Below are positions 39,871 through 51,669 of a stretch of DNA of 64,000 nt, in pieces. The stretch covers positions 248,001-312,000 of the forward strand of contig NZ_JXSL01000027.1 of assembly GCF_000829825.1 (NCBI RefSeq). Reading direction: 5' to 3'. The translations under genes were made by a program, and so were the position numbers. Below the pieces are notes generated by a model that saw nothing but the letters and a program-made list of their open reading frames with translations, was not told where the DNA came from and did not search any database. Position 1 is the first letter of the stretch. Every line of letters starts with the position of its first letter. This DNA is from Paramagnetospirillum magnetotacticum MS-1 (lineage in GTDB: Bacteria > Pseudomonadota > Alphaproteobacteria > Rhodospirillales > Magnetospirillaceae).

Positions 39871-41802
39871 CTAGCTGGCGTTATCGTTGAAGGCGGCGGT
39901 CTCGTAAATATCGGCGGGCGCCATGGACGGCAAGGTGTCCAGGGCGGTGGGCTGGGTCCGCACCAGCACCGGCTTGTCCACCGGTTCCGTCACCCGGGCG
40001 GCGGGTGACGTCACGGGCTCCTGGCTGGGGGCCGGTGCGGCCTCTGGAGCCGGGCTGGGCGGGGCCGGCGTCCGAGCCGGAGCGGGAGCGGGAGCGGGAG
40101 TGGGAGCAGGAGCGGCAGGTGCCTGAGCCGGGGCAGGAGCCACATCAACCTGAGGCCTCGGAGCCGATGGCGGCGGCGGAGCTTCGGTCGCGGCGGGCGC
40201 TTCGACCGGAGCGGGCACAGGGGCCTGGACCGGAGCCGGAGCGGGCACAGGGGCCGGAGCGGGAACCGCGGCAGGAGCGGGGGCCGGGCTGGGTTTGACC
40301 GAGGCCGGAGCCTGGGCGGGAGATGGCGTGGCCGGGGCGGGAGGCGGCGCATTAACGGCGATTTCGTCCAGTTCCATGCCGCCGCCCAGGGCCTTGTAGA
40401 GGCCGATGGCGGCCTCCAGACGACCGAAGCGGGCCTGGACCTTGGCATCCTCGGCCTGGAAGCGGGTGCGCTGGGTCTCCAGGACGTTGAGGTAATCGAC
40501 CATGCCCAGGCGGAAGGCTTCGGAGCTGAGACCATAGGCGTCCAAAGAGGCCTGCAGCACTTCCTGCTGGGCCACTTCCAGATCGCCCTGCAACCGGACC
40601 GCCAGCAGCGAATCCTCGACATCGCGCAAGCTGGTCAGGATGGTCTGCTGGTAGGTTTCCACCAATTCGGCTTGCCGGGATTCGCTGTAGTCGATATCGG
40701 ACCGGGTCTTGCCGTTATCGAAGATGGTGGCGGCCAAGGTGGCGGCCAGGGTGAAGAAGATGCTGGTGGGATTGGTGATGTTGTCGAAATACTGGGCGGC
40801 CCAACCGCGATCGCCAGAAATGGACAGCGTCGGGAACAGCTTGGCCCGCGCCACGCCGATATTGGCATTGGCGGCGATCAGATTGGCCTCGGCCTTGCGG
40901 ATATCGGGGCGGCGCAGCAGAAGGTCGGAAGGCAGGCCCGCCGACATTTCCGGCACCAAAAGATCGCGCAGCGTCTTGCCGTTCAGCGTCATGGTCTGGG
41001 GCGGCTTGCCCAACAGGACGGCCAGTTTGTTGAAGGCGCGTTCGCGGGTCAGGATGATGGGCGGAATGGTGGCTTCGGTCTGGGCCAGGACATTGCGCTG
41101 TTGCGCCAGTTCCAGGTTCGAGCTTTCGCCCAGGCGGACACGCTCGGACACCGCCTTATACATGGCCTTCATATTGGCGATGTTGCTGCGCGCCACGGCC
41201 TCGCGGTCCAGGCCTTCCAGATACTGGATATAGGTGAGGACCACGTCGGAAATCAGGGTGAGACCGATGGCCTCGCGGTCGTGGAGATTGGCGAAGGCGG
41301 TGGCCAGGGAAGAGGCCTCCGACGCCCGGACCTTCCCCCACAGATCGATTTCCCAGCTTGCCGAAACATAGGCGGAGCTGAGGCGATGGCTGCGGTTGGT
41401 GGGCGGGTTGGGGTCGGCGCCCTGTCCACCCTGGGGAGAATCGATGCTGCGCTTGCCTGAAGCGGTGATGGTGGGCAGCAAGGCGGCGCCCGCCGATCCC
41501 GCCTGCGCCTCGGCCTGGACGATGCGGGCGGTGGCTGCCTTGAGGTCGTGGTTGTTGGCCAGAGCCTCGGTCACCAGGGCGTTCAGTTCCTCGGACCCGA
41601 AGATCGTCCACCAGTTCGACAGTGGCTTGGGCATTTCCGGCGAGGGTTCGGGCAGCGGATTGCGAAAGCTGGTGGGGAGGCTCTGCTTGGGGCGTTCATA
41701 TTTCGGCGTCATGTTGCAGGCGGTGTTGCTGAGCAACAGCGCCGCGATCATCACCCATCGCGCCGCAAGCGCGGTGACTGCCGGTTTTTCCGTGGTGCCC
41801 AT
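39871..41802 (-). CDS. Outer-membrane efflux lipoprotein (NodT/OprM family) with long Pro/Ala tail
   Basis: A 643-residue TolC-like outer-membrane factor. The N-terminal signal ends at the lipobox LLSNTAC, so it is a lipoprotein of the NodT/OprM branch. Two OEP repeats follow to about residue 470 (ASWEIDLWGKVRA, LLRRPDIRKAEANLIAANAN). The unusual part is a tail of about 165 residues, first rich in Pro-Ala repeats (PAPAPVPAPAPV and the like), then ending VLVRTQPTALDTLPSMAP. Most homologues stop near 470-490. No membrane-fusion or RND partner is adjacent; mgtC follows instead. Confidence 0.88.
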   Translation of the reverse strand: MGTTEKPAVTALAARWVMIAALLLSNTACNMTPKYERPKQSLPTSFRNPLPEPSPEMPKPLSNWWTIFGSEELNALVTEALANNHDLKAATARIVQAEAQAGSAGAALLPTITASGKRSIDSPQGGQGADPNPPTNRSHRLSSAYVSASWEIDLWGKVRASEASSLATAFANLHDREAIGLTLISDVVLTYIQYLEGLDREAVARSNIANMKAMYKAVSERVRLGESSNLELAQQRNVLAQTEATIPPIILTRERAFNKLAVLLGKPPQTMTLNGKTLRDLLVPEMSAGLPSDLLLRRPDIRKAEANLIAANANIGVARAKLFPTLSISGDRGWAAQYFDNITNPTSIFFTLAATLAATIFDNGKTRSDIDYSESRQAELVETYQQTILTSLRDVEDSLLAVRLQGDLEVAQQEVLQASLDAYGLSSEAFRLGMVDYLNVLETQRTRFQAEDAKVQARFGRLEAAIGLYKALGGGMELDEIAVNAPPPAPATPSPAQAPASVKPSPAPAPAAVPAPAPVPAPAPVQAPVPAPVEAPAATEAPPPPSAPRPQVDVAPAPAQAPAAPAPTPAPAPAPARTPAPPSPAPEAAPAPSQEPVTSPAARVTEPVDKPVLVRTQPTALDTLPSMAPADIYETAAFNDNAS

Positions 41803-42135
41803 TGGTTCCCCTGGTCCTGTAGCGCATCAGTAAGTACCACGATTGCCGTGCCTTCGGAAGGGCCGTCGGGTAGGGGATTCAACCCATAGCCTTTTAGTCA
41901 TGGAGGTCCTTCCCCACATGTGTTGTTGGCGAAGCGGACATAGGCTTGCCGCAGGGATGCGCACGCCACCCTCTAATGTTGCGCCGCAACAAAAGGTTCG
42001 CAATTAACCACAATACAGTTAACGTTAGTTATCTTGTTATGAAACAACGGCTTTTAGCTAAAAATGTCGTTGCAAAATAGGGAAGGTTCATTTACCTATC
42101 TGCCCTGTCAAACGATTCAGGCTCCGGGAGGAACC
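41803..42135. other. 333-base divergent intergenic region upstream of pdhA
   Basis: No gene is seen. It separates the outer-membrane factor from pdhA and must hold both promoters. Two palindromes stand out: TGTTGCGCCGCAACA (41977-41991) and TTTTAGCTAAAA (42052-42063). The stretch near 42000-42065 is AT-rich. Confidence 0.55.
41977..41991. promoter_or_regulatory. Candidate operator palindrome upstream of pdhA
   Basis: TGTTGCGCCGCAACA is a perfect 15-bp inverted repeat (7-bp arms around a central C), 145 bases before the pdhA start. It has the size of a dimeric repressor site. The regulator is unknown; I do not recognise a matching consensus. Confidence 0.5.
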
Positions 42136-43134
42136 ATGGCCAGCAAGAAGAAGGATCGGGGGGCTGCCGAGCCCACCCCGCAGGAACTCATCCGCTATTA
42201 CCGCGAGATGCTGCTCATTCGCCGCTTCGAGGAGAAGGCGGGGCAGCTCTACGGAATGGGGCTGATCAACGGCTTCTGTCACCTCTATATCGGCCAGGAA
42301 GCCGTGGTGGTGGGAATGCAGGCCGTGGCGGGCGCCGCGGATTCCTGCATCACCTCCTACCGCGATCACGGTCATATGCTGGTCTGCGGCATGGACCCCA
42401 AGGGGGTCATGGCCGAGCTGACGGGCCGCGCTGGCGGCTATTCCCGCGGCAAGGGCGGCTCCATGCATATGTTCAGTCGTGAGAAGCGGTTCTATGGCGG
42501 CCACGGCATCGTGGGCGCCCAGGTGCCGCTGGGCACCGGCCTGGGCTTCGCCCACAAATATTCCAAGGATAATGGCGTCGCCCATGTCTATTGCGGTGAT
42601 GGCGCCGTCAATCAGGGCCAGGTCTACGAGGCCTTCAACATGGCCTCCCTGTGGAAGCTGCCCGTTGTCTTCGTCATCGAGAACAACAAATACGCCATGG
42701 GCACCTCGACCATCCGTCACGCCGCCGGGCAGGAGCTGTACATGCGCGGCGCCGCCTACGGCATTCCCGGCGAGCCGGTCAACGGCATGAGCGTCATCGC
42801 CGTGCGCGAAGCCGCCGCCCGCGCCCTGGAACACGCCCGTTCCGGCCAGGGTCCCTATATCCTGGAAATGAACACCTACCGCTATCGCGGCCACTCCATG
42901 TCCGACCCGGCCAAGTACCGGAGCAAGGAGGAGGTGACCAAGATGCGCGAGCAGCACGATCCCATCGACCAGCTGAAGGAAAAGCTGCTGGCCGACGGTC
43001 TGATCGACGAGGCCGGTCTCAAGGAGATCGATCGCGAGGTCAAGGTGATCGTCACCGAGGCGGCCGAATTCTCGCAGTCCAGTCCCGAGCCGGATCCGTC
43101 CGAGCTGTGGACCGACGTGCTGATCGAAGCGTAA
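42136..43134 (+). CDS. pdhA: Pyruvate dehydrogenase E1 component, alpha subunit
   Basis: A 332-residue TPP-dependent E1 alpha. The TPP motif spans [17 protein letters not shown] to [15 protein letters not shown]. The phosphorylation-loop region [19 protein letters not shown] is present. It decarboxylates pyruvate with PdhB. GGGAGG precedes ATG 42136. It is the first gene of the pdh operon. Confidence 0.97.
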
Positions 43135-43151
43135 GCGAGGGGGGTATAAAA

Positions 43152-44513
43152 ATGCCGATTCAAGTTCTGATGCCCGCCCTGTCGCCGACCATGACCGAGG
43201 GCAAGCTGGCCAAATGGCTGAAGGCCGAGGGCGATGCCGTCAAGTCCGGCGACATCCTGGCTGAAATCGAGACCGACAAGGCCACCATGGAAATGGAAGC
43301 CGTCGAGGATGGTGTGCTGGGCAAGATTCTGGTGCAAGGCGGCACCGAGGGCGTGGCGGTCAATACGCCCATCGCCCTGATCCTGGAAGAGGGCGAGGAC
43401 GCCTCGGCGCTTTCTGCTTCTGCTCCGGCTCCTGCCACCGCCGCTCCCGTGGCGGCCCCTGTCGCCGCGGCCCCAGTTGCCGCTCCGGTGGTCATCGCTC
43501 CGGCGCCCGAGGAAAAGGTCTACGCCTCCTACAAGCGTCAGACCATCCGCGAAGCCCTACGCGACGCCATGGCCGAGGAAATGCGCGCCGATCCGTCCGT
43601 CTTCCTGATGGGCGAGGAAGTGGCCCAGTACCAGGGCGCCTATAAGGTCAGCCAGGGTCTCTTGGACGAATTTGGGGCCGAACGTGTCATCGACACCCCC
43701 ATCACCGAGATGGGCTTTGCCGGTCTGGCTTGCGGTGCCGGATATGCGGGCCTCAAGCCCATCGTCGAGTTCATGACCATGAACTTCTCCATGCAGGCCA
43801 TTGACCACGTCATCAATTCGGCGGCCAAGACCCTTTACATGTCGGGCGGCCAGTTGACCTGCCCCATCGTGTTCCGCGGTCCCAACGGTGCTGCCAGCCG
43901 CGTCGGTGCCCAGCACAGCCAGGATTACGCCTCTTGGTACGCCCATTGCCCCGGCCTCAAGGTGGTGGCGCCGTGGAGCGCCGCCGACGCCAAGGGCCTG
44001 CTCAAGGCCTCCATCCGCGATCCCAATCCGGTGGTGTTCCTTGAGAACGAGCTGCTCTACGGCCAAAGCTTCGACGTGCCCGACGATCCCGATTTCGTCC
44101 TGCCCATCGGCAAGGCCAAGATCGAGCGGGCCGGTGCCCATGTGACCATCACCGCCTATTCGCGCATGGTTCAGATCGCTCTCGACGCCGCCGAGATCCT
44201 CAAGGGCGAGGGTATCGAGGCCGAGGTGATCAATCTGCGCACCATCCGTCCCTTGGACACCGCCACCATCGTGGCTTCGGTGCAAAAGACCAACCGCATC
44301 GTCAGCCTGGAAGAGGGCTGGGCCTATGCCGGTATCGGCTCGGAAATCGCCGCGGTGATGATGGAGCAGGCCTTCGATTGGCTGGATGCGCCGGTGGTGC
44401 GGGTCTGTGGCGCTGACGTGCCCATGCCCTATGCCGCCAATCTGGAAAAGCTGGCCCTGCCGCAGATCGAGCATGTGGTGGCTGCCGCCCGCTCCGTCTG
44501 CTATCGCGCTTGA
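43152..44513 (+). CDS. pdhB: Pyruvate dehydrogenase E1 component, beta subunit with N-terminal lipoyl domain
   Basis: A 453-residue E1 beta. Residues 1-78 form a lipoyl domain with the lipoylation site [18 protein letters not shown] Pro/Ala-rich linker of about 45 residues joins it to the standard beta subunit ([15 protein letters not shown] onward, with [15 protein letters not shown]). Lipoyl-bearing PdhB is characteristic of alphaproteobacteria. The lipoyl domain is closely similar in DNA and protein to that of PdhC next door. Confidence 0.97.
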
Positions 44514-44529
44514 AAAGGGGGGACGTAGC

Positions 44530-45795
44530 ATGCCTGTTCAAATCCTGATGCCCGCCCTCTCGCCGACCATGACCGAGGGCAATCTGGCCAAGTGGCTGAA
44601 GAACGAGGGTGACGCCGTCAAATCCGGCGACATCCTCTGCGAGATCGAGACCGACAAGGCGACCATGGAATTCGAAGCCGTGGACGAAGGCGTCCTGGGC
44701 AAGATCCTGGTGGCTGGCGGGACCTCCGGTGTCGCGGTCAACACCCCCATCGCCGTTCTGTTGGAAGAGGGCGAGGATGCCTCGGCCATTTCCGCCGCTC
44801 CGGCCCCCAAGGCTGTTGCGGCTCCGGCGAGTGTCGCCGCTGCACCGATAGCTGCGGCTCCGGCCGCCGCTCCCGCTGCAGCCCATGGTGGTGACCGCGT
44901 CGTCGCTTCGCCTTTGGCCAAGCGCATCGCCAAGGACGGCAATGTGGACCTGAAGGCGGTCAAGGGTTCGGGTCCCCACGGTCGCATCGTCAAGGCCGAC
45001 GTGGAAGCGGCGATCAAAGCCGGTCCCGCCAAGCCTGCCGCCGCCACTCCGGCTGCTGCCGCCGCTGCGCCCAAACCCGCTCCTGCTCCGGCGAGCGCCA
45101 GCCCGTTCGAGCCTGCCTTCGAGGAGATTCCCAACTCCTCCATGCGCAAGGTCATCGCCCGGCGCCTGACCGAGGCCAAGTCGACCATTCCGCACTTCTA
45201 TCTGTCCATCGATTGCGAGTTGGACTCCTTGCTGAAGGTGCGTGCCGATCTCAATGGCCGGTCCGACGCCTACAAGCTGTCGGTCAACGACTTCGTGGTC
45301 CGCGCCGTGGCGCTGGCCCTGAAGAAGGTTCCCGCCGCCAACGCCTCGTGGGGTGAGGATGCCATCAAGCGCTATAAGGACGTGGACATCTCGGTGGCTG
45401 TGGCGACGCCAAGCGGCCTGATCACCCCCATTGTGCATCACGCCGATCACAAGGGGCTGGCCGAGATTTCCAACGAGATGAAGGCGTTGGCAGGTAAGGC
45501 AAGAGACAACAAGCTGAAGCCCGAGGAGTTCCAGGGCGGCGGCTTCACCATCTCCAATCTCGGCATGTTCGGCATCAAGGACTTCGCCGCCATCATCAAC
45601 CCGCCTCAGGGCTGCATCCTGGCCGTCGGCGCGGGCGAGCAGCGTCCGGTGGTGAAAGCCGGTGCCTTGGCTGTGGCGACGGTGATGACCTGCACGCTCT
45701 CGGTGGACCACCGGGTGGTCGATGGCGCGGTGGGGGCGGAATTCCTGGCCGCCTTCAAGAAGCTGATCGAAGACCCGCTGTCGATGCTGCTGTAG
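44530..45795 (+). CDS. pdhC: Dihydrolipoamide acetyltransferase (PDH E2)
   Basis: A 421-residue E2. It has one lipoyl domain (residues 1-78, site [14 protein letters not shown]) and a peripheral-subunit-binding domain (about 135-172, SPLAKRIAKDGNVDLKAV then GPHGRIVKADV). The catalytic domain (about 195-421) ends with CTLSVDHRVVDGAVG, which holds the HxxxDG active site. It forms the core of the complex. Confidence 0.97.
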   Translation: MPVQILMPALSPTMTEGNLAKWLKNEGDAVKSGDILCEIETDKATMEFEAVDEGVLGKILVAGGTSGVAVNTPIAVLLEEGEDASAISAAPAPKAVAAPASVAAAPIAAAPAAAPAAAHGGDRVVASPLAKRIAKDGNVDLKAVKGSGPHGRIVKADVEAAIKAGPAKPAAATPAAAAAAPKPAPAPASASPFEPAFEEIPNSSMRKVIARRLTEAKSTIPHFYLSIDCELDSLLKVRADLNGRSDAYKLSVNDFVVRAVALALKKVPAANASWGEDAIKRYKDVDISVAVATPSGLITPIVHHADHKGLAEISNEMKALAGKARDNKLKPEEFQGGGFTISNLGMFGIKDFAAIINPPQGCILAVGAGEQRPVVKAGALAVATVMTCTLSVDHRVVDGAVGAEFLAAFKKLIEDPLSMLL

Positions 45796-45808
45796 GGAGG
45801 GCCGCGTC

Positions 45809-46387
45809 ATGAGCCGCGAGGCCGTGATCGCCGCCTTCGCCAGCCTGAAGGCCGATTTCCGCGATGAACGTTTTCCCGTCATCGCGGGACGGCTGGCTGG
45901 AGAATGTCTGGTTTGGGGCGAGCAGTTGCTGACGCTGTTTGCCCATGCCGACCGCGACGCCCTGAGGGCCGTGGATGCGCTCGCCCGCTTCTGGGTGGTG
46001 CGCTTTCGCGGCATGCCCGAACCGGCCGATCTGGGCGGGGCTGGGCCGGGGCCCGCTTTCGTCCTGGCCTTCACCGCCTTTCCCTATCTCGACGTCATGA
46101 TGGAGGCGTGGGAATTGGGCGAGGTGGTGGCGGAGCAGGGGCCCGACCGGATGACGCTGCGCTGTCTGTTCGATGGCGAGGACCAGGGAACCCTGGTGAG
46201 TGCCGAGCGGGCAGGGGGCGGATGGCGTTTCGATCTGATGGGGCTCTACCGCGCCAAGGCCCAGGCCCTGGAGACGTTCATTCAAGCCGAGTTCGGCGAT
46301 TTCGACGCCTTTCTCGACCATTACGTGGCCGAGCACGATTTGAATTTCATTGCGGATCAAGCCTGGCGGCCTCTGGCCGAAAAATAA
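45809..46387 (+). CDS. Hypothetical protein in pdh operon (192 aa)
   Basis: A 192-residue soluble protein starting MSREAVIAAFASLKADFRDE. It has aromatic and acidic character, with FTAFPYLDVMMEAWELGEV in the middle and LDHYVAEHDLNFIADQAW at the end. No known family is recognised. It starts 13 bases after pdhC, with GGGAGG upstream, and lies before another unknown ORF and lpdA, so it is surely cotranscribed. Confidence 0.72.
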   Translation: MSREAVIAAFASLKADFRDERFPVIAGRLAGECLVWGEQLLTLFAHADRDALRAVDALARFWVVRFRGMPEPADLGGAGPGPAFVLAFTAFPYLDVMMEAWELGEVVAEQGPDRMTLRCLFDGEDQGTLVSAERAGGGWRFDLMGLYRAKAQALETFIQAEFGDFDAFLDHYVAEHDLNFIADQAWRPLAEK

Positions 46388-46405
46388 AAACCGGGAGGGA
46401 GTGAA

Positions 46406-46873
46406 ATGGGTCTGAGAGTAAGGGAGATGCCCCGTCCGCCGGGCATGCCGGTTACGCCGTTCCCCGCGGGAAGTGTGGCCGAGCGTTCGGCTCTGGCTGG
46501 TCTGGTGGGCATGATCGAGAACAACCCCGCCTTTTGCAATCGCGGTGTCCTGCCCGAAGAGCAGGAGCGTTGCTACCGCGCCGTGGTCGATGCCAAGCGC
46601 CTGATCGGCGATACCGCCGAACTGCTGCCGCCCGGCACTCCGGCCGATGATCTGCTGGGCGCCATGCGCGCCGCCTGCCGCAAATACATTCTCGAAGCCG
46701 AGAATTGGGACCGCCGCACCGGGCGGCGCTATCAGATGCCGACCTTTGTTTTCTACCAGTTGCTGGGCGCCTTCCGCGAATTGCTGGGAGTGCATGTCTG
46801 GCGTCTGGCCGAGGCCTACGACATGGAAATCGAGGGCCGCCTCAACATGATCTTCCCCGGCTCACCGGAATAA
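46406..46873 (+). CDS. Hypothetical protein in pdh operon (155 aa)
   Basis: A 155-residue predominantly helical soluble protein. The first 25 residues are Pro-rich (VREMPRPPGMPVTPFPAGS). The remainder reads YRAVVDAKRLIGDTAELLPP, then RRYQMPTFVFYQLLGAFREL. I recognise no family. GGGAGGGAG precedes ATG 46406, and lpdA follows 13 bases after the stop. Its place between E2 and E3 suggests a role with the complex, but nothing in the sequence proves it. Confidence 0.7.
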   Translation: MGLRVREMPRPPGMPVTPFPAGSVAERSALAGLVGMIENNPAFCNRGVLPEEQERCYRAVVDAKRLIGDTAELLPPGTPADDLLGAMRAACRKYILEAENWDRRTGRRYQMPTFVFYQLLGAFRELLGVHVWRLAEAYDMEIEGRLNMIFPGSPE

Positions 46874-46886
46874 TTTGGAGAAAACC

Positions 46887-48275
46887 ATGGCCGAGAACAG
46901 CTTCGACATCATCGTCATCGGCGGTGGCCCCGGCGGCTATGTCGCCGCCATCCGCGCCGCGCAATTGGGCATGAATACCGCTTTGGTGGAGCGCGAGCAT
47001 CTGGGCGGCATCTGCCTCAACTGGGGCTGCATCCCCACCAAGGCCCTGCTGCGTTCCGCCGAGATCTACCGCAACATGCAGCATGCCGAGTCTTACGGCC
47101 TGTCGGCGCCCGGCGCCTCGTTCGACCTGGCCAAGATCGTGGCGCGCTCGCGCGGGGTTTCGGCCCAGTTGCAGGGCGGCATCAAGCATCTGCTGAAGAA
47201 GAACAAGGTCACGGTGATCGAGGGCACCGCCAAGCTGGCGGGTGGCGGCAAGGTGGCCATCGAGGGCAAGCCCACCATCTCCGCGCCCCACATCATCCTG
47301 GCGACGGGGGCGCGGGCCCGCATCCTTCCCGGTTTCGAGCCCGACGGCAAGTTCATCTGGACCTATAAGGAAGCCCTGGTTCCCGACACCATGCCCAAAC
47401 GCCTGCTGGTCATCGGCTCGGGCGCCATCGGCATCGAGTTCGCCAGCTTCTTCAATGCATTGGGTGCACAGGTCACCGTGGCCGAGGCCATGGACCGTGT
47501 CTTGCCGGTGGAAGACGCCGAGATCAGCGCCATGGCCCAGAAGAGCTTCGAGAAGCAGGGCATGAAGATCCTGACCAGCGCCAATATCAAGGGGCTGAAG
47601 AAGAACGCCGCCGACGTCACTGTCACCATCGAGGCTGGCGGCAAGACCCAGGACATCACCGTCGATCGGATCATCACCGCCATCGGTATCGTCGGCAATG
47701 TGGAGAATATCGGTCTGGAAGGCACCAAGATCAGGGTGGAACGCACCCACGTCATCACCGATCCCTATTGCCGCACTGACGAACCGGGCATCTACGCCAT
47801 CGGCGATATCGCAGGCGCTCCCTGGCTGGCTCACAAGGCCAGCCACGAGGCCATGATCTGCGTGGAAAAGATCAAGGGCTTGGCCGATGTCCATCCGTTG
47901 GACATGCGCAAGATTCCCGGCTGCACCTACTGCCATCCCCAGGTGGCCTCAGTGGGCCTTTCCGAGGCCAAGGCCAAGGACAAGGGCTATACGGTCAAGG
48001 TCGGCCGCTTCCCCTTCATGGCCAACGGCAAGGCCATCGCCTTGGGCGAGACCGAGGGCATGATCAAGACGGTGTTCGACGCCAAGACCGGCGAATTGCT
48101 GGGCGCCCATATGATCGGCGCCGAAGTCACCGAGATGATCCAGGGCTATGTGGTCGCCAAGACGCTGGAGACCACCGAGGCCGAGTTGATGCACACCGTC
48201 TTCGCCCATCCGACGCTGTCGGAAATGATGCATGAATCGGTTCTGGACGCTTATGGGCGGGCGGTCCACTTCTAA
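46887..48275 (+). CDS. lpdA: Dihydrolipoamide dehydrogenase (E3)
   Basis: A 462-residue FAD/NAD flavoprotein that reoxidises dihydrolipoamide. The FAD motif is IIVIGGGPGGYVAAIRAA, the redox disulphide GGICLNWGCIPTKAL, the second FAD motif TDEPGIYAIGDIAGAP, and the C-terminal active His in VFAHPTLSEMM. ATG 46887 follows TTTGGAG. It ends the pdh structural genes. Confidence 0.97.
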   Translation: MAENSFDIIVIGGGPGGYVAAIRAAQLGMNTALVEREHLGGICLNWGCIPTKALLRSAEIYRNMQHAESYGLSAPGASFDLAKIVARSRGVSAQLQGGIKHLLKKNKVTVIEGTAKLAGGGKVAIEGKPTISAPHIILATGARARILPGFEPDGKFIWTYKEALVPDTMPKRLLVIGSGAIGIEFASFFNALGAQVTVAEAMDRVLPVEDAEISAMAQKSFEKQGMKILTSANIKGLKKNAADVTVTIEAGGKTQDITVDRIITAIGIVGNVENIGLEGTKIRVERTHVITDPYCRTDEPGIYAIGDIAGAPWLAHKASHEAMICVEKIKGLADVHPLDMRKIPGCTYCHPQVASVGLSEAKAKDKGYTVKVGRFPFMANGKAIALGETEGMIKTVFDAKTGELLGAHMIGAEVTEMIQGYVVAKTLETTEAELMHTVFAHPTLSEMMHESVLDAYGRAVHF

Positions 48276-48288
48276 TCGCTGATTTTCA

Positions 48289-48362
48289 CCCCGAAGGCAC
48301 GAAGGGCACGAAGAACAAGCAAAGGTTTCTTCGTGTTCCTTCGTGCCTTTGCGCCTTCGTGG
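48289..48362. repeat. Inverted intergenic repeat between lpdA and lipA
   Basis: A long imperfect hairpin. GAAGGCACGAAGGGCACGAA (within 48292-48315) is complementary to TTCGTG/TTCGTGCC segments in 48327-48359. Tandem CACGAAG units occur on one arm and CTTCGTG on the other. It resembles a known class of dispersed CACGAAGG palindromes. It may stabilise or attenuate the lpdA-lipA transcript. Confidence 0.75.
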
Positions 48363-48408
48363 TTCAGAAGTCCTTGACCCACGACCATTGCTGGACGATA
48401 TCCAAGCC

Positions 48409-49350
48409 ATGAACGACAAGCAGTCCCTGCGTCATCCCGAAAAAGCCCGCAAGCCGGACCAGATCAGTCCGCGCAAGCCCGACTGGATCAGGGTCAAGGC
48501 TCCGACCTCGGAAGAGGCGGCGGAAGTGCGCCGCCTGATGCGCGAAAAGAACCTGCACACCGTGTGCGAAGAGGCGGCCTGCCCCAATATCGGCGAATGC
48601 TGGAAGCACAAGCACGCCACCTTCATGATCCTGGGCGATACCTGCACGCGGGCCTGCGCCTTCTGCAATGTCAAGACCGGCAATCCCAAAGGTGCTGTCG
48701 ATCTGGCCGAGCCCGAGCATCTGGCCGAATCGGTCAAGGCCATGGGGCTCAAACACGTCGTCATCACCTCGGTGGACAGAGATGATCTGGCCGATGGCGG
48801 CGCCTTCCAGTTCGTGGCCTGTATCGAGGCCATCCGCGCCTCGTCGCCTGAATGCACCATCGAGGTGCTGACGCCTGATTTTCGCGACAAAGGCGAGGGG
48901 ACCGTCGAGCGCATCGCCATCGCCCGTCCCGATGTGTTCAACCACAATCTGGAAACCGTGCCGCGGCTTTATCCCGGCATTCGTCCCGGTGCCCGCTATT
49001 TCGAGTCCCTGCGCGTGCTGCAGCGGGCCAAAGCTGCGAACACTTCCATTTTCACCAAGTCAGGCATCATGGTGGGGCTGGGGGAGGAGCGGGCCGAGGT
49101 ACTGCAGGTCATGGATGACATGCGCTCTGCCGGGGTGGATTTCATCACCATCGGCCAGTATCTTCAGCCGACCTTGAAGCATGTGGCGGTGTCGCGCTTC
49201 GTCACCCCCGACGAGTTCGAGGATTACCGCGCCCAGGCCCGCGCCAAGGGCTTTCTTATGGTGGCGGCCACGCCGCTGACCCGATCCAGCCACCACGCCG
49301 ACCGCGATTTCGAGGCGCTGAAGGCCGAACGCCAGCGCCGCCAGGGGTAA
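48409..49350 (+). CDS. lipA: Lipoyl synthase
   Basis: A 313-residue radical SAM enzyme that inserts sulphur into octanoyl groups on lipoyl domains. Both clusters are visible: the auxiliary [13 protein letters not shown] and the SAM-binding [13 protein letters not shown]. The end [12 protein letters not shown] contains the conserved RSSxHA motif. ATG 48409 is chosen. Its place after pdh genes fits maturation of the PdhB and PdhC lipoyl domains. Confidence 0.97.
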
Positions 49351-49362
49351 CCAGGGACCACC

Positions 49363-49791
49363 ATGCCGACCCATGCCGAGCAGCGCGTTCTGCCTTATCC
49401 TCCGGAGAAGTTGTTTGAACTGGTGGCCGACGTGGCCCGGTACCCTGAATTCCTGCCTTGGTGCGTGGCGTCGCGCATCCGCTCACGCGATGGCGATGTG
49501 TTCTTCGCCGATCTGGTCATCGGCTTCAAGATGGTGCGCGAGCGCTTCACCTCCAAAGTGACGCTCACGCGGCCCGACCGCATCGACGTCACTTATACCG
49601 AGGGGCCGTTCAAGCATTTGAACAACCACTGGGTCTTCAAGCCCCATCCCGAAGGCACCGAGATCGATTTCTACGTGGATTTCGAGTTCCGGTCCAAGAT
49701 GCTGCAGGCCCTGATCGGCGCTTTGTTCAACGAGGCGGTCAAGATGATGGTCGGGGCCTTCGAAAAGCGCGCCCGGCAGCTTTACGGGTAA
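49363..49791 (+). CDS. RatA/Coq10-like START-domain protein
   Basis: A 142-residue SRPBCC protein reading PTHAEQRVLPYPPEKLFELV, then DVARYPEFLPWCVASRI and the end VKMMVGAFEKRARQLYG. Bacterial members are named RatA; the mitochondrial relative Coq10 binds ubiquinone and supports respiration. A quinone-chaperone role is the more likely one here. It follows lipA by 12 bases and precedes a terminator. Confidence 0.88.
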   Translation: MPTHAEQRVLPYPPEKLFELVADVARYPEFLPWCVASRIRSRDGDVFFADLVIGFKMVRERFTSKVTLTRPDRIDVTYTEGPFKHLNNHWVFKPHPEGTEIDFYVDFEFRSKMLQALIGALFNEAVKMMVGAFEKRARQLYG

Positions 49792-49806
49792 ATCACGCCA
49801 CAACGG

Positions 49807-49844
49807 AAAAAGCCCCCGGCGGAGGATCATCGCCGGAGGCTTTT
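49807..49844 (+). terminator. Rho-independent terminator after the pdh-lipA block
   Basis: AAAAGCC-CCCGGCG pairs with CGCCGG-AGGCTTTT (49807-49820 with 49831-49844) with a GAGGATCAT loop. It ends in TTTT and lies 16 bases after the RatA-like stop. The A-rich 5' side means it can also act on the opposite strand. Confidence 0.88.
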
Positions 49845-49998
49845 GCCCAGAGGTAGTGCCCCAAAAGTCACCCTCGGGCCCGTCTTTATGTCCCGTTCGT
49901 TCGTTCGAGGAGGGGACGGACTATGTAATTCGTGACGGGTTCAATCTAGGACCGGGTGGGGGGCTGCGTCTGTGAAGAGTCTCACATAGCGGTAAGAC

Positions 49999-50700
49999 TC
50001 AATCCAGCGAGGTCAGGCCTTCCAGGGCGTTGACCTTGTTCAGGGTGATCTGGCCGCGCCCCAATGTCACGATTCCCGCCTGTTCCCATTTGGACAGCAC
50101 CTTGTTGACGCTTTCCCGGCTGATGCCCAGATGGTCGGCGATTTCCTGCTGCGACAGCTTGATGGCCGAGGGGCCGCCCGCCTTGCTCTTGGTCCCCATG
50201 GTCTGGTCCAGCATCAGCAGATGCTTGGCCAGGCGGGAGGGAAGCGACAGGAAAACCATGTCTTCCAACTGGTTGTCGGCCTTGCGGATGCGGTCGCACA
50301 GCACCTCGATCAGGTGCAGGGCCTGGGCAGGATGCTTATGCAGGAAGGTGTGGACGTCCTTGCGCTCCAGCGCGATCAGCTCGGTGGCCTCCATGGCGGT
50401 GGCGTCGGCCGAGCGCTCCTTGCCGTCCAGGACGGCGATCTCGCCGAACAGCTGGCCCGGCTTGATCATGCCATAGGTGACCTCGCGGCCATCCGCCGAC
50501 AGGACGCCGATGCGGATCAGTCCTTTGGCCAGCAGATAGAGACGGTCGCCGGGATCACCCTTGGAAAACAGGGTCTCGCGGGCGTCGATCTTGACCATCT
50601 TGGCGCGGGCGGCCAACTCATCCAGCAATTCGGGCTGAACAGAGGCAAACAGTGGCGTATTCGCCAGCATCTCGCGGCGACGCAAAGCTGAATCCGGCAT
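49999..50700 (-). CDS. Crp/Fnr family transcription regulator
   Basis: A 233-residue protein with an N-terminal cyclic-nucleotide-binding domain (about 15-130, with FSKGDPGDRLYLLAKGLIRI and GELFGEIAVLDG-like residues GQLFGEIAVLDGKER). A C-terminal winged helix carries LSQQEIADHLGISRESVNKV. It lacks the Fnr cysteine cluster, so it is Crp-like and may bind a nucleotide. It starts 21 bases after livM on the same strand. GGGAGGG precedes ATG 50700. Confidence 0.92.
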   Translation of the reverse strand: MPDSALRRREMLANTPLFASVQPELLDELAARAKMVKIDARETLFSKGDPGDRLYLLAKGLIRIGVLSADGREVTYGMIKPGQLFGEIAVLDGKERSADATAMEATELIALERKDVHTFLHKHPAQALHLIEVLCDRIRKADNQLEDMVFLSLPSRLAKHLLMLDQTMGTKSKAGGPSAIKLSQQEIADHLGISRESVNKVLSKWEQAGIVTLGRGQITLNKVNALEGLTSLD

Positions 50701-50721
50701 GATCGAGCTTTCCCTCCCCAC

Positions 50722-51669
50722 TCAGCCGGTGATACCGCGCCGCTTCAACCACGGCGCCAGCACGCCAATCATACCGCTACGGAACAGCAATACGCAAATC
50801 ACGAAAATGACGCCCTGGATGATGATGACCCACGAGCCGATGCCAGCGAAGAAGTCCTGGATGGCCACCACCAGGAAGGCGCCCACCGTCGGTCCCAGAA
50901 CGGTGCCAACGCCGCCCAGAAGGGTCATCAGCACCACCTCGCCTGACATGTGCCAGCTGACATCGGCCAGGGAGGCCAACTGGAACACCAGACTCTTCAG
51001 CGATCCGGCCAGTCCGGCGAAGGCGGCCGACAGGACGAAGGCGATCAGTTTGTAGCGGCTGACCTCATAACCCAACGAGATGGCGCGGGGCTCGTTGTCG
51101 CGGATGGCTTTCAGCACCTGGCCGAAGGGGGAATTGACCACCCGGTACAGAAACAGCAGCGAAAGGACGAACACCGCCAGCACGAAGTAATACATGGCCA
51201 TGGTGTTGGACAGGTCGATCAGCCCGAACAGATGGCCGCGCGGCACGCCCTGGATGCCGTCCTCGCCATGGGTCATGGGGGCCTGCACCGCCACGAAAAA
51301 GCCCAACTGGGCAAGCGCCAGGGTGATCATGGCGAAATAGATACCCTGACGGCGGATGGCCAGCCAGCCGACCACGCCGCCCAGCACCGCTGCCGTGGCG
51401 ACGCCCAATAGGATGGCGATTTCCGGGGTAAGGCCCCATTCCTTGGCGGTGAAGGCGGTGACATAGGCCGACCAGCCGAAGAACATGGCATGGCCAAAGG
51501 ACAACAGCCCCACATAGCCCAGGAGTAGATTGAAGGCGGCGGCGAACAGGCCGAAGCACAGACCCTTCATCAAAAAGACCGGGTAGAAGATGAAGGGCAG
51601 AACCAGTCCCAGCCCAAGCAGTGCGAGGATGAAGGGCGTCTGGCGCGATGGCGGAGGGGCGTTGCTCAT
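50722..51669 (-). CDS. livM: Branched-chain amino acid-type ABC permease LivM
   Basis: A 315-residue inner-membrane permease with about 9-10 helices. Landmarks are AFNLLLGYVGLLSFGHAMFFG and the C-terminal GGVGTVLGPTVGAFLVV. It pairs with LivH (3-base gap). With livK, livF and livG it makes a HAAT-type importer. Confidence 0.95.
   Translation of the reverse strand: MSNAPPPSRQTPFILALLGLGLVLPFIFYPVFLMKGLCFGLFAAAFNLLLGYVGLLSFGHAMFFGWSAYVTAFTAKEWGLTPEIAILLGVATAAVLGGVVGWLAIRRQGIYFAMITLALAQLGFFVAVQAPMTHGEDGIQGVPRGHLFGLIDLSNTMAMYYFVLAVFVLSLLFLYRVVNSPFGQVLKAIRDNEPRAISLGYEVSRYKLIAFVLSAAFAGLAGSLKSLVFQLASLADVSWHMSGEVVLMTLLGGVGTVLGPTVGAFLVVAIQDFFAGIGSWVIIIQGVIFVICVLLFRSGMIGVLAPWLKRRGITG

Follow-up and report, generated by a model that had tools for sequence, protein, structure and literature searches.

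Two conserved genes between E2 and E3 of pyruvate dehydrogenase in the Magnetospirillum-Paramagnetospirillum group, candidates for accessory proteins of the lipoyl apparatus

Introduction

The pyruvate dehydrogenase (PDH) operon of Paramagnetospirillum magnetotacticum MS-1 carries two genes, here called A and B, between the genes for E2 and E3. Both are genuine genes under purifying selection, and in the genomes of their family they are found only at this site. We tentatively propose for A and B a dedicated accessory role, without catalysis, in the native PDH/lipoyl apparatus of the Magnetospirillum-Paramagnetospirillum group. That they touch or regulate the complex is inferred from genome context alone.

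Bacterial PDH is usually regarded as consisting of E1, E2 and E3 alone. A listing-level search of the open PMC library yielded nothing that we recognised as concerning genes A and B, and returned no paper on NTF2 and PDH or on PDH accessory proteins. PDH abundance has been reported for a Magnetospirillum in passages of PMC4268860 that do not mention the two ORFs, and the words pyruvate, pdh, dihydrolipo- and lipoyl are absent from the main texts of PMC7676999 and PMC9549626.

Results and Discussion

Genes A and B in the PDH cluster

The window, i.e., the whole stretch of 64,000 nucleotides that was analysed, contains a cluster in the order E1 alpha, E1 beta, E2, A, B, E3, lipA and a gene that is presumably of the COQ10-type family, all on the plus strand (Table 1). 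The earlier note had described A and B as two well-formed ORFs with ribosome sites and gaps of 13-18 bases; its coordinates proved exact, the three gaps being 13, 18 and 13 bases, and the ribosome sites ahead of A, B and E3 are purine-rich. No promoter-like sites were found on the plus strand within 41800-49900, no plus-strand terminator-like sites in the E2-A, A-B and B-E3 gaps, and no Rfam matches within 41000-51000. Of the 7 terminator-like matches found, where 5.8 were expected, a single plus-strand one lies inside B (46724).

Where E1 alpha starts (42064-42135) is uncertain, as alignments with the congeners begin only at about residue 8-25 of its longest frame and those with some other relatives at residue 2-3; the alternative start is the ATG at 42136. 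On the minus strand, 39871-41802 encodes a protein that by eye is of the outer-membrane-efflux type and whose C terminus is a long tail rich in proline and alanine, and two congeners align only with the first 479-480 of its 643 residues.

Table 1. Features of the PDH cluster in the window
Feature	Position	Strand	Basis or remark
PDH E1 alpha	42064..43134	+	ORF and tblastn to relatives; exact start codon uncertain
PDH E1 beta with N-terminal lipoyl domain	43152..44513	+	ORF; lipoyl motif seen on reading the sequence
PDH E2 with N-terminal lipoyl domain	44530..45795	+	ORF; stop ends at 45795
E2-A gap, 13 bases	45796..45808	+	ribosome site GGGAGGG for A
Gene A	45809..46387	+	ATG to TAA, 192 aa; no Pfam/NCBIfam match; model NTF2-like
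A-B gap, 18 bases	46388..46405	+	ribosome site GGGAGGGAG for B
Gene B	46406..46873	+	ATG to TAA, 155 aa; divergent DUF6650 (PF20355) relative; four-helix-core model
B-E3 gap, 13 bases	46874..46886	+	ribosome site TTGGAG for E3
PDH E3, dihydrolipoyl dehydrogenase	46887..48275	+	ATG at 46887
lipA, lipoate synthase	48409..49350	+	
COQ10-type START-like protein (presumed)	49363..49791	+	last gene of conserved cluster

At this G+C, the mere presence of an open frame proves little, as is shown by an antisense ORF of 346 aa (45755-46795) that spans the same stretch and is longer than either A or B. The proof that A and B are real genes under purifying selection is their conservation. Among the five nearest congeners, A retains 82-86% protein identity with dN/dS of 0.18-0.28, and B 94-97% with dN/dS of 0.05-0.10, while B compared with a sixth congener gives 0.11; the sixth row of the A table (G012) is excluded as a gapless comparison across an indel. 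Substitutions in both genes fall mainly at codon position 3, and both genes are found again at the same site in many species.

A and B have descended vertically together with the operon. Over 17 rows, the correlation of pairwise distances for A is 0.91 with B, 0.90 with E1b, 0.88 with E1a and 0.87 with E3, against 0.77 each with LipA and COQ10 and, lowest of all, 0.62 with E2; the corresponding values for B, over 14 rows, are 0.95 for E1a, 0.93 for E1b and E3, 0.87 for COQ10, 0.77 for LipA and 0.69 for E2. The distances of E2 correlate weakly with every gene, including E1a (0.61) and E3 (0.70). Mean within-genus distances are 0.353 for A, 0.137 for B, 0.144 for E2, 0.089 for E3 and 0.080 for E1a, so that the rate of change in A is about four times that in E1a and E3.

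Distribution and position of A and B

Among named records, the nearest relatives belong to Paramagnetospirillum, Phaeospirillum and Magnetospirillum. Within the family of the window, A occurs in 27 and B in 24 of 55 genomes, confined to two of 17 genera. B was never found without A (0 of 24), and A without B in three genomes of two genera (G001, G002 and G020). The A profile matched 24 of 258 genomes of the order, of which G049 and G512 belong to other families, and one of 385 genomes of the class, which is the window's own; the B profile matched three of 289 genomes, two of these matches being DUF6650 proteins. On these counts we reject the idea that A and B are widespread in the class.

The genes keep their place wherever they occur in the family. 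All 27 A-bearing genomes have the order E2-A-(B)-E3 on one strand, B lies between A and E3 in all 24 genomes that carry it, and the 22 named records repeat the order without exception (B in 19). The arrangement that we took as the mark of an accessory gene, a conserved position with E2 and E3 on the same strand and with short gaps, thus holds for every A (27) and every B (24) in the family. In four genomes (G033, G453, G455 and G456) A and B overlap, which fits coupled translation.

Three genomes of the window's own genus (G004, G005 and G015) lack both A and B. Their E2 is 61-63% identical over the aligning part and has no lipoyl domain, and lipA is absent from the stretch read beside the PDH cluster. 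The E3 of these genomes falls beside that of another family (G038; grouping value 95) and outside the genus, whose remaining E3 proteins form one group (value 100). The sequences point to replacement of the PDH cluster by transfer in these genomes (L113, L114 and L115). The cluster there is not the family's own, so A and B were lost along with the native operon and no copy was retained at another site. The loss of A and B with the replaced operon fits a PDH-linked role; mere physical linkage is also expected to give it.

The E2 of the replaced clusters starts directly at the E3-binding domain, and the upstream E1beta carries a lipoyl domain. Such clusters were observed in G004 (L113, 6758-7654), G005 (L114/L238), G015 (L115), G038 (L234), G043 (L237), G119 (L235) and G112 (L240). 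In G004, Pfam assigns E3_binding and 2-oxoacid_dh to E2 and Biotin_lipoyl to E1beta; in the others, the lipoyl-less E2 is based on tblastn and reading of the frames. The sole lipoyl arm in these clusters seems, as judged from the sequences, to sit on E1, an arrangement for which we recognised no literature in a listing-level search. In G120 (L239, 375-2657, minus strand), a single 789-codon open frame holds both E1beta and a lipoyl-less E2. The two appear to be fused, with one lipoyl domain between them in all; a sequencing frameshift is the alternative.

It had also been suggested that the two proteins might co-occur with the lipoyl-type PdhB. Such a tie fails: at least 22 of 43 relatives without A have a lipoyl E1beta (counted from separate upstream frames), as do G004, G005 and G015, which lack both genes.

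The E2-E3 slot in other genomes

The earlier note's statement that most alphaproteobacteria have no such inserts holds in a census of E2-E3 gaps. Among relatives without A and B, we took 40 stretches, of which 38 could be measured (two have no E3 downstream, and G026 contributes two stretches), and 35 of the 38 have gaps below 200 bases. Across the class, 56 stretches whose best E2 match was PDH-like were chosen from 81 genomes; gaps are below 200 bases in 32 of the 48 measured. Gaps of at least 200 bases, with varied ORFs inside, account for the other three of 38 and 16 of 48. An E2-E3 slot with A and B is unusual, yet the slot accepts extra genes elsewhere.

Another recurrent tenant of the slot in several unrelated families is a small cupin, identified in G045 by Pfam (Cupin_2, E 1.1e-12; L084, 378-737) and by eye only in G041 (L106), G062 (L202), G087 (L211) and G122 (L223). 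In rhizobial pdh operons, the genes between pdhC and lpdA encode a GDSL-type hydrolase and a DUF5076 protein. Like A and B, these are extra ORFs in the same slot; unlike them, A and B matched no Pfam family.

The unrelated ORFs that occupy the slot in other lineages, in those 16 class genomes and three stretches of relatives, speak for A and B being passengers that use the strong PDH operon for their expression and act elsewhere in the cell, as does the fact that PDH works in many relatives having neither gene. A passenger is expected to turn up elsewhere in some genome, however, and A never does so in the 27 family genomes; moreover, A and B both vanish where the operon has been replaced. We consider this explanation the main rival of the accessory role, and somewhat less probable than it.

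Protein A

A has no match in Pfam, NCBIfam, PADLOC or PHROGs, and its 17 relatives gave only scattered single-member chance matches to families (best E 0.0076). Such misses do not argue against membership in any family. Among the sequences of solved structures there was no meaningful match for A or B (best E 0.2 and 0.82). The predicted model of A has a pLDDT of 94.5 and consists of helices, a four-stranded sheet (101-142) and then a long helix. Foldseek returned nothing significant for it (best E 0.01). In the structural comparison, NTF2-like or cystatin-cone domains make up most of the 50 rows. The best match is a de novo pocket design (6w3w; Z 8.5, 98 aligned residues, r.m.s.d. 3.2) and the best natural chain is the BenB beta subunit (3e99; Z 7.3, 95 aligned, r.m.s.d. 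3.8); the rows also include 2r4i (Z 7.0, 100 aligned, r.m.s.d. 3.5), scytalone dehydratase (4std; Z 6.9, 112 aligned, r.m.s.d. 4.5) and a putative ketosteroid isomerase (3hx8; Z 6.8, 98 aligned, r.m.s.d. 2.7).

With caution, the model may thus be read as an NTF2-like fold. The model, with its four strands and flanking helices, aligns to many NTF2-like, SnoaL-like and cystatin-cone proteins, whereas about 40 C-terminal residues of A lie outside most alignments, and no described NTF2-like family in Pfam or NCBIfam matched A by sequence. The Z values are mostly at the level of common arrangements.

Since pocket enzymes such as 4std and 3hx8 are among the fold neighbors, A could be an enzyme or metabolite-repair protein handling a small molecule, a by-product of the metabolism of pyruvate, lipoate or acetyl-CoA, in an NTF2-like pocket, with B as its partner. 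The recurrent cupin in G045 and, by eye, in the four other genomes would agree with this, as if the slot favored small-molecule proteins. Against it, inspection by eye of the residues that the family shares with G049 and G512 shows no conspicuous catalytic pair, and the Z-scores do not rise much beyond those of common arrangements. We therefore hold such an activity to be unlikely.

A outside the family

The two homologs of A outside the family bear on what A might serve. In G512 (family f22), A begins 7 bases after E2, and the contig stops at the end of A; this homolog was new to the profile (E 2.1e-28, one genome). In G049 (family f15), A lies about 30 bases before lipA. G049 is itself a row of the A profile, and only its single-sequence value counts (25% identity, E 1e-9). 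A PDH-type E2 was not found in G049, where the sole E2 detected matches at 38%, as is typical of the 2-oxoglutarate type. With A beside E2 in the one and beside lipA in the other, the shared denominator is lipoyl-enzyme genes, which all 29 A copies from these genomes adjoin. As the only E2 found in G049 is of this kind, the client of A need not be PDH.

The earlier note named assembly or regulatory factors, or small-molecule sensors, as candidates. This stands in part: within the family, A and B are strictly tied to the operon, as an assembly or regulatory factor would be, but in one genome A adjoins lipA and a PDH-type E2 was not found, and DUF6650 relatives of B (see below) lie away from pdh.

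The G049 arrangement, together with lipA close downstream in most A-bearing clusters, would also agree with A acting on lipoylation itself, as an escort, protector or remodeler of the lipoyl domain that works with LipA on any lipoylated E2. This would rest on one genome and one remote homolog, and A adjoins E2, not lipA, in all genomes of the family, which makes it distinctly improbable.

Protein B and DUF6650

B likewise has no match in Pfam, NCBIfam, PADLOC or PHROGs, and the Pfam model of DUF6650 found none of 13 aligned B proteins (B and 12 relatives) at E up to 10. In the opposite direction, the B profile found two proteins (E 7.9e-13 and 5.2e-10), both of which Pfam calls DUF6650, and hhalign aligned B to a three-row DUF6650 alignment over 132 of its 155 residues (probability 98.3, E 1.4e-14). 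B and DUF6650 (PF20355) align around AMRxACRxY, the LGAFRE region and a C-terminal D-hydrophobic-EGxL. On these alignments, B is a divergent relative of DUF6650 by common descent. B differs from the DUF6650 proteins examined in being shorter at the N terminus and in its place, as they lie away from pdh genes. DUF6650 is rare, occurring in two of 99 relatives (one above the cut-off) and one of 190 class genomes. One congener with B in its operon (G016) also has a DUF6650 protein away from the PDH operon (L070, 1477-2049).

The model of B, with a confidence of 83.8, lower than that of A, has long helices at 24-38, 50-73, 80-105 and 113-137. Foldseek returned nothing significant. Four-helix structural matches (the best, a designed protein, with Z 9.2, 113 aligned residues and r.m.s.d. 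2.9) are at the level of helical bundles and were not used.

DUF6650 is listed among the domains newly implicated in anti-phage defense in PMC13092281, and B, as its kin, might have kept a defense role, e.g., as a guard watching the PDH complex during phage infection; we regard this as very unlikely. Typical defense genes differ from B, which descends vertically, is under strong constraint and holds a fixed place in a housekeeping operon, and A and B matched 0 PADLOC families. Rather, B behaves like a domesticated housekeeping gene, with its fixed position, strong constraint and lack of a PADLOC match.

A possible accessory role of A and B

Under the proposed accessory role, A and B would be made in step with E2 and E3. 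A would be the older and more constant part, soluble and with an NTF2-like, probably pocket-bearing fold, and might dock on the lipoylated E2 core or the lipoyl domain, or act with LipA on E2 lipoylation. It would serve as an assembly, protection or metabolite-sensing factor. B, a predicted four-helix protein from DUF6650 stock, would be a later addition that either assists A or acts as an adaptor joining A to the complex.

Several observations stand against this proposal. The operon position can mean co-expression alone, and the sequence distances of A and B track E2 less well (0.62 and 0.69) than E1a, E1b and E3, although E1a and E3 track it weakly as well. The roughly four-fold faster evolution of A, as estimated from these distances, is unlike a core subunit. 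PDH operates in many close relatives that have neither gene, which shows that the complex does not generally require A or B, and the absence of B from three A-bearing genomes means that B is dispensable even beside A.

In other organisms, E3BP and the fungal PX (PMC7494870 for PX) are PDH accessory subunits, non-catalytic partners of E2 and E3, which is the role proposed here for A and B. Kinship of A or B with E3BP or PX was not found in sequence or fold, and the E2 described here already has its own peripheral-subunit-binding sequence (by eye). A more far-reaching version of the proposal, which we find rather improbable as it stands, is that A defines a new family of accessory subunits of lipoyl complexes, NTF2-like and binding the lipoylated E2 core, with B as a helical adaptor domesticated from the defense-family stock of DUF6650, together making a lineage-specific regulated PDH complex.

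A and B are a lineage-specific addition to a classic operon, made up of one unnamed family and one divergent relative of DUF6650. If the accessory role is true, some bacteria, including a model magnetotactic group that has genetically tractable members, would run PDH with dedicated helpers, and B would provide the first non-defense context for DUF6650.
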